Shown piece after piece: positions 4,047 to 26,666 of a stretch of 27,078 bases of DNA. The translations under genes were made by a program, and so were the position numbers. Source of the stretch: a virus. The notes beneath the pieces were generated by a model that saw only the letters and a program-made list of their open reading frames with translations, was not told the origin of the DNA and made no database searches. How positions within the stretch are numbered: the stretch's first letter is position 1; every line of letters starts with the position of its first letter. Location: the IMG/VR virus record IMGVR_UViG_3300032278_000095, positions 1 to 27,078 of that record. One strand, written 5' to 3'.

Positions 4047-5000
4047 TTGGATGAAAAGATTCAACAAACACGGTTACCTCCACTACCCGCAGTAGGGTCT
4101 GATAACACATCAAGCAATAATCAATCTGATGTATTCACTGGCGACGAAACAAAAGTATCTACTTTCATAGGCCCAAATGCGAGGGTAGATTGGAATAAAA
4201 AAGCATTGAGAGACGCAGAACGGGCAGTTAACCGAGGCGATAGTCGAGAGGATATTTGGCTCAAGCATGGTACTCTTTGGGCCGCCGATCATCTCCCTAG
4301 GCAAGAAATTTCAAATCATAAAGATAAAATTATTAATAAATTACCTCGAGGCGGCAGTATGTTTTTAAGAGATTTTCTACATGCACCGGAGGTTTATAAA
4401 AATTACCCACATATAGCCAATGCTACTGTTACTCATGATATAAGTATGGATGCTGATACAGATGCATGGGCCAGAGGGACCGACGAAATAGGTGTTGGTG
4501 CGAACCCGAAATTGAACGATTTGATGCATGAAGTACAACACCTTGTAGATAATAGTGAGATGCATTCTGCGGGCCAGAGTATGGACAGGGCAAAGACGAT
4601 TGCTGATCGCGAAGGTGGCAAGTATACCAAGGGAGATGTTTATTGGGGAAGTACAGGTGAAAGAAGTGCGTTTAGTACCGGTCAACGGCAACCATTGACC
4701 CCTAATCAGCGGCGCCAATTTTTTCCTGATAGGTTAGATACGAGATCACCACATAATAAGTCGTATATACATGTAAATCAAAGTGAACCATATGGTAGCT
4801 ATGAAATTCGACCTCTAGACGATGGGCGATATGCACCGCAGACAACGACAACAACGACACCCACAAAACCTAAGTCGACACCTGTGAAACCTAAGTCGAA
4901 ACCCAAGAAGAGTCCAACTATCACTGTTACTGGCGGAACTCATATAGGGGCAGGTACAACATCGGATCCGGCAGATTGGAAAGCAAATGAAAATAAATGA
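4029..5000 (+). CDS. LPD23-like zincin (HEVQH) protein with capsid-targeting-like N-terminus
   Basis: 323 residues from the ATG at 4029; an in-frame start at 4008 would add seven residues and hide the MKINEV N-terminus shared with the next gene. Residues 110-175 read FLRDFLHAPEVYKNYPHI...IGVGANPKLNDLMHEVQH. This matches the pattern of the large polyvalent protein domain LPD23: a YP-containing segment followed by an HExxH metal site (H167, E168, H171). E211 in GERSAF is a possible third ligand. The C-terminal part (about 275-310) is a low-complexity Thr/Pro/Lys linker. A virion-carried metallopeptidase is plausible, but peptidase activity is not proven, and the domain may be catalytically divergent. 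The MKINEVLDE start resembles a T4 capsid-targeting leader. Confidence 0.82.
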   Translation: MKINEVLDEKIQQTRLPPLPAVGSDNTSSNNQSDVFTGDETKVSTFIGPNARVDWNKKALRDAERAVNRGDSREDIWLKHGTLWAADHLPRQEISNHKDKIINKLPRGGSMFLRDFLHAPEVYKNYPHIANATVTHDISMDADTDAWARGTDEIGVGANPKLNDLMHEVQHLVDNSEMHSAGQSMDRAKTIADREGGKYTKGDVYWGSTGERSAFSTGQRQPLTPNQRRQFFPDRLDTRSPHNKSYIHVNQSEPYGSYEIRPLDDGRYAPQTTTTTTPTKPKSTPVKPKSKPKKSPTITVTGGTHIGAGTTSDPADWKANENK

Positions 5001-6843: not shown

Positions 6844-6872
6844 TTGACACAACATACAATATAAATTATAAT
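6844..6872 (+). promoter_or_regulatory. Consensus sigma70 promoter, early type
   Basis: TTGACA at 6844-6849, 17-bp spacer, TATAAT at 6867-6872: both hexamers are perfect consensus. Predicted start is about 6879-6880, only 3-4 nt before the ATG at 6883, with no SD. An AATAAATA box (6870-6877, one mismatch to the T4-late TATAAATA) overlaps the -10, so the site may serve both early and late. Confidence 0.85.
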
Positions 6873-18075: not shown

Positions 18076-18326
18076 TGTTAACTGTATATACTTCACCGCG
18101 GTGCCATCATTGCACCAATGTTAAAGAATATTTGCAAGAACTCGACATATCATATAAAGAAGTAGATATATCAACAGACCGGGCATCGAAAGATTGGATA
18201 CTAGAGCAAGGACACAGAACAGTACCACAAATTTATCAAGGTAATACATTAGTAGTAGAAGATGGTGCCGCTTCGTTACTTCGGTTGACAAAAGACCAAA
18301 TAGAAGATATAATAGATAATATCTAA
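18075..18326 (+). CDS. Glutaredoxin
   Basis: 83 residues. Thioredoxin fold with C10-H-H-C13 active site after TVYTSPR, the cis-Pro segment GHRTVPQIY (P51), and the DGAASLL C-terminal helix region. It reduces disulphides, classically those of ribonucleotide reductase, so NrdJ is the likely partner. It overlaps the membrane-protein stop by one base (TAATG). Its last codons contain a perfect sigma70 promoter for the next unit. Confidence 0.92.
   Translation: MLTVYTSPRCHHCTNVKEYLQELDISYKEVDISTDRASKDWILEQGHRTVPQIYQGNTLVVEDGAASLLRLTKDQIEDIIDNI
18285..18313 (+). promoter_or_regulatory. Consensus sigma70 promoter with overlapping inverted repeat
   Basis: TTGACA at 18285-18290, 17-bp spacer, TATAAT at 18308-18313: perfect in both hexamers. 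The inverted repeat AGATAT-N8-ATATCT (18305-18324) covers the -10 and the predicted start (about 18320), a position suited to a repressor. All of it lies in the end of the glutaredoxin gene. Confidence 0.82.
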
Positions 18327-21902: not shown

Positions 21903-22263
21903 CTAACTTTACCGTTAACGGTTCTCCTTTTTTCATTGGACGAATTATATCTAAACATTTACACCAACAGTCTTCATATCGTAGTCCCCAATCCCATCCG
22001 CCAGATAACATAATATCCCATAACTTTCCATTAGGATTATCTGATTCAGTGAGAAATTCACCCAATGCTGTTGTTATCCAAGAACCTTCATTGGCATGAC
22101 CAGGTCGTTTACCTATATGAATGTGGGGATGGGTAATAAATGCCGGGCCTACCATTCTTTTATGTGGTATATCCTGCGCCGCACATAAGATCCAAGTTTT
22201 CGTGGGTATAGGACCTGGTTTTAGTTCTACGTGCCTTATAGTTAAGTAAGAAGGCAAAGCCAT
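21880..22263 (-). CDS. Phage hypothetical protein
   Basis: 127 residues; not recognised. On the minus strand a GGGGGAG SD stands before the ATG at 22263. The sequence is rich in His, Trp and Cys (CAAQDIPHKRMVGPAFITHPHIHIGKRPGH; GGWDWGLRYEDCWCKCLDI), which suggests a metal site, although no known motif fits. With the gene at 21720-21902 it forms a two-gene minus-strand unit divergent from the tmRNA. Confidence 0.72.
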   Translation of the reverse strand: MALPSYLTIRHVELKPGPIPTKTWILCAAQDIPHKRMVGPAFITHPHIHIGKRPGHANEGSWITTALGEFLTESDNPNGKLWDIMLSGGWDWGLRYEDCWCKCLDIIRPMKKGEPLTVKLGDIEKRD

Positions 22264-22388
22264 TTTCTCCCCCGAAAGTAATGGGTGCTAGTACTCATAT
22301 TTAACTAAAGAAACGCATAGTGAGCGTTTTAGACGCTATATACGGGGGAATTATTAGGTACATTATAAGTATTATTTGTATTGATGAC
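22264..22388. promoter_or_regulatory. Divergent intergenic region upstream of tmRNA
   Basis: No gene seen. It holds an inverted pair TCCCCCG (22268-22274) / CGGGGGA (22343-22349), an AGCGT/ACGCT hairpin near 22323-22337, and an AT-rich stretch (22350-22380) with a TATTAT that could be the tmRNA -10. No convincing -35 is seen for either direction. Confidence 0.35.
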
Positions 22389-22592
22389 GTGCTGTAAGTA
22401 GAGGTTTTGGACGCCGGGGCAGTACCGGCCGCCTCCACCACATGGGGGCGAGATAGTTTCGACAGGGCCGGGAAAGCAGTGAAGAGATACACAACCAATT
22501 AAACGCCAACAACGACGTTTATGAGTATAAACTAGCGGCATAAATCGCTAGTCGGGGTTCGGGATGATCCTTGTTAACCAAAATCCCCTTTC
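22389..22592 (+). ncRNA. ssrA: Circularly permuted (two-piece) tmRNA
   Basis: The acceptor piece comes first: GTTTTGGAC (compare E. coli TTTCGGAC), T-stem GCCGG/CCGGC (22413-22417, 22425-22429), acceptor strand CGCCTCC, A, CCA ending at 22440. After only 3 nt the coding piece begins with GGGGGCG (22444-22450), which pairs over all 7 bp with the acceptor strand (one G-U), then AGATAGTTTCGACAGGG, the tmRNA D-arm signature. The tag frame starts at GCC 22505 and reads ANNDVYEYKLAA then TAA (22541-22543). The stop lies in the loop of a 7-bp hairpin (ACTAGCG/CGCTAGT, 22531-22552). GCAGTG and TGCTGT can form part of P2 with G-U pairs. The role is ribosome rescue and tagging for proteolysis. The outer ends are approximate. 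Confidence 0.93.
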
Positions 22593-22612
22593 TTTATGGC
22601 AAGACGCTTTGG

Positions 22613-22641
22613 TTGACAAATTCTTCGTATGACTGTATTAT
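22613..22641 (+). promoter_or_regulatory. Sigma70-like promoter, near-leaderless
   Basis: TTGACA at 22613-22618, 17-bp spacer, TATTAT at 22636-22641 (5/6). The predicted start, 22648, is 3 nt before the ATG at 22651. No SD is present. It opens the operon that carries tRNA-Glu, purM and tRNA-Gln. Confidence 0.8.
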
Positions 22642-22650
22642 TAATATGTT

Positions 22651-22968
22651 ATGAGAAGTCACGCCTGTGAAGACGGCATAAAACGGATAACAGCTAAACT
22701 GATTGTACCGATGTGTTTGGATGATATAGTGCTCTATTCGTTGAGTGCATTAGCATTTGCTAATGCGGCAGCCAACTCTTTTAATCCTGTTACTTATTTA
22801 GAAACCCTTAATAAACGACAGGTATTTACATTAGCAAAAAACGAAGTAATCGATAGAGGAAAAGACGCACCTAGATCGCGAGTTAGAAGTGTATATAGTG
22901 AAGATGATATAAATCGCGCAACAGATATCATTAAAGAAATATTCCCTGAATTAAACAATGGCTTATAA
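22651..22968 (+). CDS. Small phage hypothetical protein, early type
   Basis: 105 residues, no known family. It begins MRSHACEDGIKRITAKLIVPMCLDDIVLYSLSALAFANAAANSF; the central part is hydrophobic-helical but not a clear membrane span. The C-terminal half is charged (KNEVIDRGKDAPRSRVRSVYSEDDINRATDIIKEIF). The predicted transcript starts 3 nt upstream and there is no SD. It overlaps the next gene by 11 nt. Confidence 0.7.
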   Translation: MRSHACEDGIKRITAKLIVPMCLDDIVLYSLSALAFANAAANSFNPVTYLETLNKRQVFTLAKNEVIDRGKDAPRSRVRSVYSEDDINRATDIIKEIFPELNNGL

Positions 22969-24482: not shown

Positions 24483-24685
24483 CAGTTAAAAAATGTCGAC
24501 GTTGTAAAGAAGTATTACAACGCGGATCAGTAATGTACAGGCATAATCGATTTTGGAAATGGTATACTAAAAAAGACTTTCCATATGGTTACCCCGACGA
24601 AGTAAATGACGAAGATACATTTTGTGCAAATTGTAAAAAAGCAATACAAGCAAAGCACGGATGGATGGAAAAGTGGATAGGATAA
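24479..24685 (+). CDS. Small zinc-ribbon hypothetical protein
   Basis: 68 residues from GTG 24479, which overlaps the upstream stop by 4 nt (GTGA). Two Cys pairs, C6-x2-C9 (KKCRRCKE) and C49-x2-C52 (FCANCKK), should bind one zinc. The middle is aromatic and basic (MYRHNRFWKWYTKKDFPYGYPDE). Function unknown. Its last 25 nt overlap the purM start. Confidence 0.75.
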   Translation: MTVKKCRRCKEVLQRGSVMYRHNRFWKWYTKKDFPYGYPDEVNDEDTFCANCKKAIQAKHGWMEKWIG

Positions 24686-25584
24686 CATATAAAGACGCGG
24701 GCGTAGATGTTAATAAAGCAGACAAGTTAGTTAAGCATTTAGGTATTGGCGGCTACGGTGCTGTTATTGATATAGATAAAACATTACCTCAATTTACTAC
24801 TTGGAAAAATCCTTATTGGCATACAGGTTGTAGACTTGTAATGGGTACTGATGGTGTTGGTACTAAAATATTAGTAGCAGAACAATTAAAAAAATATGAC
24901 ACTATAGGTATTGATTTAGTTGCTATGTGTGTTAACGATATTATATGTCATGGTGCAACGCCATTTGCTTTTTTAGACTACTATGCAACGGGTAAATTAG
25001 TATTAAAGAAAAGTAAAGAAATACTTAAAGGAATACAACAAGGATGTGAAATAGCAGACTGCCAATTGGTAGGAGGCGAAACTGCCGAAATGCCAGGAGT
25101 ATATACAAAGTCAAATTTTGATTTAGCAGGGTTTGCAATTGGTTTAGTACATGCACAAGATGTACGTCCTAAAAATGTTAAAGCCGGAGATCATATAATA
25201 GGTATACCTAGTAGTGGTTTACATAGTAACGGTTTTAGTCTCATAAGAAAACTTTATAATGAATACACAGAAGAGATGTTGACTCCTACTAGGATATACA
25301 CATACGATGTGTTACCAATAATAGAACACATTAATGCATTAGCACACATTACTGGAGGAGGTATACATGGTAACTTGCCGCGTGTTCTTCCTATAGGAAC
25401 TAGTTATAAATTAAAATTTAAATATAGTAAGCAGTGGCAAGAATTATATAAGAAAACTAAATTTAGTAAAGTAGAATTTGAAAGCACGTTTAATTGTGGA
25501 TGGGGAATGTTATTAGTAGCAAAAGAAACTGATAAAATTTTAGATCATATAAAAGATGCAAAAGTTATTGGGGAAGTAATATGA
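24661..25584 (+). CDS. purM: Phosphoribosylformylglycinamidine cyclo-ligase (AIR synthetase)
   Basis: 307 residues, somewhat shorter than bacterial PurM (about 345). It closes the imidazole ring in purine synthesis (FGAM + ATP to AIR). Family motifs in order: YKDAGVDV, GTDGVGTKI, GIDLVAMCVNDI, FLDYYATG, GGETAEMPGVY, FAIGLV, GIPSSGLHSNGFSLIRKL, HITGGGIHGNLPRVLP and FNCGWGMLLV. These cover the ATP site and the dimer core, so it is probably active. PurM is a known auxiliary metabolic gene of marine T4-like phages. The start at 24661 overlaps the zinc-ribbon gene; GTG at 24673 is the alternative. Confidence 0.94.
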   Translation: MDGKVDRITYKDAGVDVNKADKLVKHLGIGGYGAVIDIDKTLPQFTTWKNPYWHTGCRLVMGTDGVGTKILVAEQLKKYDTIGIDLVAMCVNDIICHGATPFAFLDYYATGKLVLKKSKEILKGIQQGCEIADCQLVGGETAEMPGVYTKSNFDLAGFAIGLVHAQDVRPKNVKAGDHIIGIPSSGLHSNGFSLIRKLYNEYTEEMLTPTRIYTYDVLPIIEHINALAHITGGGIHGNLPRVLPIGTSYKLKFKYSKQWQELYKKTKFSKVEFESTFNCGWGMLLVAKETDKILDHIKDAKVIGEVI

Positions 25585-26210
25585 CAGAATTTATTACACC
25601 GTTTGGTCCAACAATTATGTGTGTTGATATACCGATGGAATACGTCGACAAACTAAATGAATATATGGACAACGTAGTTAATGATGAACAACTTTCTATA
25701 GAAAGAGAATATAGACCCAATCTTGTAGGCCGTATTGAATTAGAAAAAGGAGTAGATGCCTCTCACGCACCTGAAATTTGGCAAGAAATGGGGTTGTACG
25801 ATTGGATGTTTAAACAATGTGAAACCTATGTCCACCATAAAACTTGTGACCGGGGAGAAATACATCCTAGTTTATTTAAAATTCCTGGAGCATGGATTAA
25901 TGATATGGTAGAAGGAGAATGGAATCCCACACACGAACATGCACCTTCTACGTTATCGGTAGTAGGATATTTAAAAGTTCCAGACAGTTTTGTAGAAGAT
26001 AAAATAGATGGGTTACTTACTTGGTATGATGGTAGGCAAGCATTATGGACTAAATCGGGATATGCTGTATTACCGATAGTAGGAAAATTTTATTTTTTTC
26101 CAGGATGGTTATCACATGCTGTTATGCCGTTTTATGGAGAGGGACTTCGGAGATCTATGTCAGCAAATTTTGATTTCACTTATAGAGATTATGGGCCACA
26201 GCAATTTTAA
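25581..26210 (+). CDS. 2OG-Fe(II) oxygenase family protein
   Basis: 209 residues, ATGA overlap with purM. The double-stranded beta-helix core is visible: WNPTHEHAPSTLSVVGYLKVP with candidate iron ligands H118/H120, FYFFPGWLSHAVMPFYGEGLRRSMSANFDF with distal H179 and the 2-oxoglutarate-binding Arg near 190. This is the common marine phage type of putative 2OG oxygenase; the substrate is unknown. It stops 2 nt before tRNA-Gln. Confidence 0.87.
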   Translation: MTEFITPFGPTIMCVDIPMEYVDKLNEYMDNVVNDEQLSIEREYRPNLVGRIELEKGVDASHAPEIWQEMGLYDWMFKQCETYVHHKTCDRGEIHPSLFKIPGAWINDMVEGEWNPTHEHAPSTLSVVGYLKVPDSFVEDKIDGLLTWYDGRQALWTKSGYAVLPIVGKFYFFPGWLSHAVMPFYGEGLRRSMSANFDFTYRDYGPQQF

Positions 26211-26212
26211 AA

Positions 26213-26286
26213 TGGGACATAGTGTAACGGTAGCACTACAGATTTTGATTCTGTCAGTTGGGGTTCGAATCCCTGTGTCCCAGCCA
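26213..26286 (+). tRNA. tRNA-Gln (anticodon TTG)
   Basis: Acceptor TGGGACA/TGTCCCA (7 bp), discriminator G283, encoded CCA at 26284-26286. Anticodon stem ACAGA/TCTGT around TTTTGAT, anticodon TTG at 26245-26247. T-loop TTCGAAT with stem TGGGG/CCCTG. The final A of CCA is also the A of the next gene's ATG. Confidence 0.97.
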
Positions 26287-26666
26287 TGAAAAATACTGCA
26301 ATCAAAGGAAAGTACATACCTAAGAATAAATCAAAATTTAATAAAAATAGTGCCATATATAGATCCATGTGGGAACGGCGGTTTATGATATACTGTGATC
26401 GTTCAGAGAACATACTAGAATGGAACAGTGAAGCAATTCATATTCCGTATGTGTCGCCCAAAGACGATCGTTTACATAATTACTATCCGGACTTTTATAT
26501 AAAGTATAAAGATGTTAACGGCAACGTTATTGAAAAGATTGTTGAGATTAAGCCGCAATGGCAAAAGAGATGGAGTGTTAACAAAGCCAAATGGAAAGCG
26601 GCAAGAAAATACTGTAAAGAACATGGCTATTTGTTTCAAGTCCTAACCGAAAAGGAATTGTTTTGA
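26286..26666 (+). CDS. Head-completion nuclease, T4 gp4-like
   Basis: 126 residues. The pattern YRSMWERRFMIYCDRSENILEWNSEAIHIPYVSPKDDRLHNYYPDFYIKYKD...KIVEIKPQ matches the T4 gp4 head-completion protein, a PD-(D/E)XK fold nuclease. Active-site residues: E30, D69 in YYPDFYI, E87-x-K89. The C-terminal AARKYCKEHGYLFQVLTEKEL is also characteristic. It should trim or seal DNA ends before tail joining. The ATG starts on the last base of tRNA-Gln, leaving no SD outside the tRNA. Confidence 0.9.
   Translation: MKNTAIKGKYIPKNKSKFNKNSAIYRSMWERRFMIYCDRSENILEWNSEAIHIPYVSPKDDRLHNYYPDFYIKYKDVNGNVIEKIVEIKPQWQKRWSVNKAKWKAARKYCKEHGYLFQVLTEKELF

Follow-up and report, generated by a model that had tools for sequence, protein, structure and literature searches.

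A viral contig of 27,078 bases in IMG/VR (record IMGVR_UViG_3300032278_000095; its whole length is the window analyzed here) contains a circularly permuted tmRNA (ssrA) gene, the product of which is very probably an active two-piece tmRNA, phage-borne and of alphaproteobacterial type. From the comparisons described below, the gene is real and conserved and is probably functional. It adds a clear case of conservation from a genome of the jumbo-phage kind, with selection on both the tag and the fold.

Identity and architecture of the gene

Two Rfam covariance models match the gene on the plus strand: RF04321 (tmRNA_permuted) at 22378-22543 with 96.9 bits (E value, 6e-18) and RF01849 (alpha_tmRNA) at 22333-22591 with 71.8 bits (E value, 5.7e-18), both exceeding the gathering scores that serve as Rfam cut-offs (47 and 50 bits, respectively). 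Independently, ARAGORN predicted a permuted tmRNA at 22348-22634, with the tag ORF ANNDVYEYKLAA followed by a stop. The first-pass annotation, made from the sequence alone, had proposed a phage-encoded circularly permuted tmRNA and suggested a covariance-model check; the two models and ARAGORN confirm this proposal. Neither the cyano nor the beta tmRNA model was among the Rfam matches listed, from which the tool hides lower-scoring overlaps within a clan. Judged by these matches, the tmRNA is of the alphaproteobacterial, circularly permuted, two-piece type. The interval first annotated, 22389-22592, lay at the right locus but was slightly too narrow at the 5' end: the outer strand of P2 begins at 22377, and the precursor reaches further upstream. 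The parts of the locus are as follows.

22294-22345, plus strand: upstream block that hardly varies among the three phages; promoter or leader candidate
22348-22592, plus strand: permuted tmRNA (ssrA) gene (Rfam, ARAGORN, and sequence reading); precursor ends approximate, with ARAGORN running to 22634 and the pseudoknot ending at 22587
22377-22440, plus strand: acceptor piece with the 5' strands of P2, the T-arm, the 3' acceptor strand, and an encoded CCA at 22438-22440 (Rfam alignment and sequence reading)
22413-22429, plus strand: T-arm, with a 5-bp stem and the alpha-type loop GGCAGUA
22430-22436, plus strand: 3' strand of the acceptor stem, partner of 22444-22450; U70 pairs with G3
22441-22443, plus strand: 3-nt spacer CAT, the segment between the acceptor and coding pieces, presumably removed by processing
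22444-22592, plus strand: coding piece with the 5' acceptor strand, the D-loop signature GAUAGUUUCGAC, the 3' P2 strands, the tag, P5, and the putative pseudoknot
22505-22543, plus strand: tag frame ANNDVYEYKLAA with the stop TAA; resume codon GCC (ARAGORN and three-phage comparison)
22531-22552, plus strand: P5 hairpin of 7 bp, with the stop codon inside the loop
22553-22587, plus strand: putative H-type pseudoknot (CGGGG/CCUUG and GGGAU/AUCCC), like the 3' part of alpha_tmRNA

The acceptor piece, with its T-arm and CCA, precedes the coding piece as first read, and the stop codon was likewise correctly placed in the P5 loop. A73 and CCA follow the acceptor 3' strand, and the 3' strands of P2 run to 22491. 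The pairing of the acceptor stem across the permutation had been called perfect, which holds for all 7 bp if G-U is allowed; one pair is a G-U wobble, the expected G3-U70. This wobble is the mark of tRNA-Ala and tmRNA and confers alanine identity. The tag terminates in the LAA degron. The minimum free energy of the single-strand fold over the coding and acceptor region did not separate from that of shuffled sequences (z, -0.93), and the fold still recovers the T-arm, the acceptor stem, and P5.

The window RNA resembles the Caulobacter-type alphaproteobacterial tmRNA (RF01849; merged model RF04321) in its permuted order, its GGC(A/G)GUA T-loop, its G3-U70 acceptor stem, its P2 domain, its tag with the stop in a hairpin, and its putatively pseudoknot-like 3' end. 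It differs from that tmRNA in having a shorter mRNA-like domain and in diverging outside a 60-nt core, and none of the sampled bacterial loci has its tag. The alpha_tmRNA match spans 259 nt versus 355 model positions, so that the RNA is below consensus length, with part of the mRNA-like domain missing.

Conservation and genomic setting

Contigs L121 and L122, from two related phages, have the tmRNA gene at the same position, followed by the same downstream genes and tRNA-Glu. The L121 tag sequence is identical to that of the window, and all six substitutions that distinguish the tag of L122, the more distant relative, are synonymous, with none nonsynonymous; because only 21 to 30% of random substitutions in this frame would be synonymous, P is about 1e-4 to 7e-4 for six of six when the substitutions are treated as independent. 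Across the three phages, 98.6% of the pair cells of a 47-pair structure hold, versus 43 to 47% when the partners are slid by 1 to 3 columns. P5 of L122 has undergone a compensatory change from C-G to U-A, and one P2 pair occurs in C-G, U-A, and U-G versions. A covariation shuffle control was not significant for these three close sequences, in which most pairs never vary, and the complementary strands of the putative pseudoknot are invariant in all three. Since the tag changes are exclusively synonymous and the P2 and P5 changes are compensatory, the tag, P2, and P5 are, by this comparison, under selection. The tag frame and the acceptor pairing, on whose conservation in related phages the first-pass annotation had staked its reading, are thus both kept. 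When the tag was sought elsewhere in IMG/VR, only L121 and L122 were found to have it. Beside the tmRNA, L122 has an extra gene (4152-4592, minus strand) with a Na+/Pi-cotransporter domain (PF02690), which is absent there in the window.

The conserved block upstream of the gene (22294-22345) has no match to the sigma-70 consensus on the plus strand, and its 3' end has no repeat within the window. A near-consensus sigma-70 promoter (TTGACA-N17-TATTAT, 22613-22641) is predicted just 3' of the tmRNA and is conserved in L121 and L122; it probably drives the next genes and not the tmRNA. Exact TTGACA-N17-TATWAT sites occur on the plus strand of the window at 6844-6872, 18285-18313, and 22613-22641, where 0.02 are expected by chance, and are candidate early promoters. 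Downstream of the tmRNA, ARAGORN identified two tRNA genes, tRNA-Glu and tRNA-Gln; genes for a PurM-like AIR synthase, a 2OG-Fe(II) oxygenase, and a TnsA-like endonuclease domain surround tRNA-Gln (24661-26666).

The primase, the DnaB helicase, and adjoining genes are arranged in the same order as in the jumbo phages PA5oct, Atu_ph07, and Phosso (27 to 47% identity). The nearest relatives of nrdJ (class II ribonucleotide reductase) are from phages of SAR116, Rhizobium, and Roseobacter-group hosts (61 to 63%), with those of Streptomyces phages close behind.

Proposed function

A tmRNA releases stalled ribosomes and tags their incomplete proteins for degradation. The Caulobacter two-piece tmRNA is the model for processing, alanine charging, SmpB delivery, and tagging. 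By analogy, host RNase P would cleave the window transcript at 22444, host 3' processing would trim the acceptor piece after CCA, and pairing in the acceptor stem and P2 would keep the two RNAs together. Once charged with alanine by host AlaRS, the tmRNA would be delivered by host SmpB and EF-Tu to ribosomes that stall on broken mRNAs in the infected cell, and ANNDVYEYKLAA would be added to the stalled product, the LAA end of which would lead to degradation by ClpXP-type proteases of the host. The phage would probably benefit in that, alongside the supply of tRNA-Glu and tRNA-Gln, ribosomes are kept cycling and aborted proteins are cleared while host RNA is turned over in infection. The first-pass annotation had suggested that the RNA could redirect the proteolysis of stalled products or make up for a decaying host tmRNA.

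No SmpB gene was found in 26 phage records, i.e., 20 IMG/VR records and six annotated phage genomes (four of which carry a permuted tmRNA), an absence that is firm only for complete genomes, most IMG/VR records being fragments. Host SmpB must therefore serve if the RNA functions, and the phage presumably also relies on the AlaRS, RNase P, and proteases of the host. The selection on tag and fold indicates that the phage gene is probably used. The gene also raises the questions of why phages keep a trans-translation RNA without SmpB and whether the phage tag routes products to proteases other than those that the host tag does.

Alternatively, the phage RNA might act mainly as a decoy that draws SmpB or AlaRS away from host tmRNA and inhibits host trans-translation. 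There is a phage precedent in the tag-less tmRNA of mycobacteriophage DS6A, which is reported, in work cited in PMC11915505, to do so when expressed in E. coli, and the mRNA-like domain of the window RNA is reduced. However, a decoy needs no tag, whereas the tag frame here is intact, ends in LAA, and still encodes the same peptide after six synonymous changes. We consider such a decoy unlikely and favor a tmRNA that is active in tagging.

Relation to other phage and host tmRNAs

Phages that infect alphaproteobacteria or marine bacteria were already known to encode two-piece tmRNAs. That of the OM43 phage Melnitz was reported by Buchholz et al. 2022 (PMC9004378), who discussed its use by the phage and counted 53 two-piece structures among phage genomes; of these, 50 were marine or aquatic. 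The Melnitz tmRNA gene is linked to a glutamine riboswitch (PMC9004378), for which no Rfam match at an E value of 0.1 was obtained within 22250-22700 of the window. Melnitz (PMC9004378) and pelagiphage HTVC008M share with the window a phage-encoded, permuted, alpha-type, marine tmRNA, and the HTVC008M tag also ends in LAA; both phages differ from that of the window in phage group. A tmRNA is also listed for Bradyrhizobium elkanii phages (PMC12656738) and for Sinorhizobium jumbo phage AP-J-162 (PMC11242549). Together with at least 119 alpha-type permuted stretches that a pattern scan detected in IMG/VR, these published cases place the window gene in a known kind.

Our analysis also revealed a permuted tmRNA in Sinorhizobium phage Phosso (L270:1501-2103; PV764938.1 349596-350198). 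Phosso is a jumbo phage, and its primase and helicase are relatives of those in the window. Its tmRNA closely resembles bacterial ones, and about 430 nt separate the two pieces, versus 3 nt in the window. There is no other Rfam match at the Phosso locus, and ARAGORN misses the gene. Permuted tmRNAs are present but unannotated in the deposited genomes of HTVC008M, Erythrobacter phage vB_EliS-L02, and RcSimone-Hastad (L268, L264, and L269, respectively); that of vB_EliS-L02 follows a tRNA cluster and adjoins a gene annotated as a proteasome subunit.

Phylogenetic trees were drawn from viral loci L002-L122 and bacterial loci L125-L348. In the first, built from about 130 columns of the tRNA-like core, the clade of 148 alphaproteobacterial sequences excluded 87 of the 89 viral ones, the exceptions on the bacterial side being Phosso (L270) and L052. 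In the second, thinned to less than 80% identity (28 bacterial and 43 viral rows), the split between viruses and bacteria had a support of 98/99. L264, L119, L270, L052, L342, and L204 were left out of this tree by name after the first tree had been seen; five of the six had been flagged as long-branched, and L270 and L052 were the viral rows on the bacterial side, so that the clean split is partly due to the choice of these rows. The position of the window trio with the other viruses is not firm, since an AU test gave a P value of 0.417 for the trio as sister to bacterial tmRNAs. Among the Rfam matches listed, beyond which weaker bacterial ones exist, alphaproteobacterial tmRNAs mostly scored about 127 to 166 bits and 15 viral ones scored 69 to 124 bits, which points in the same direction as the trees. 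Of the distinct tag tails that end in Ala-Ala, 36 of 42 viral and 36 of 79 bacterial ones have Leu before it (Fisher P value of 1.5e-5, not corrected for relatedness); this count was made without ARAGORN because an ARAGORN-only count was judged open to bias. A count of G3-U70 over the pattern-derived loci was dropped as evidence, the search pattern itself having demanded that pair. Within the limits set by few columns, pattern-based sampling, row exclusions, and fast viral evolution, these results are suggestive of phage alpha-type tmRNAs grouping apart from host tmRNAs and more often encoding a terminal LAA.

ssrA is the integration site for many phages and islands. This generally known fact (see also PMC9004378) would fit a functionless host fragment, either a copy of the attachment site or a host ssrA acquired recently. 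Yet the gene is complete and, outside the core, far from every sampled bacterial tmRNA; three phages keep it at one locus, and both its tag and its pairing are under selection; no integrase was recognized among the window genes searched; and the window tmRNA groups with those of phages and not of hosts, with the reservation that the AU test sets on the trio. A passive fragment is thus very improbable. Contaminating bacterial sequence or chance resemblance is refuted by the scores of two agreeing covariance models and by the presence of the tmRNA in the same phage gene neighborhood on three IMG/VR contigs.

The alpha-type tmRNA and the phage-gene matches (the replication genes and nrdJ) suggest an alphaproteobacterial host. 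The first-pass expectation that the tmRNA would inform host assignment holds to class level and no finer, with no genus nameable, because phage tmRNAs of this type nest in no sampled host clade and because Melnitz, with its alpha-type tmRNA, is a phage of a gammaproteobacterium (PMC9004378). Similarity between tmRNAs did not lead to the exact host: alignment to the bacterial ones is confined to the 60-nt core, and the AU test does not exclude the trio as their sister.

It is possible, and we propose it tentatively, that phage alpha-type tmRNAs, including that of the window, are an old lineage carried by phages, one kept apart from host ssrA under selection for strong LAA degrons. If so, phages would maintain their own RNA for ribosome rescue and protein disposal instead of repeatedly borrowing it from the host. 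Several alphaproteobacterial genomes (G096, G117, G185, G188, G214, and others) have two or three permuted tmRNA matches, some of which may be prophage or mobile copies.
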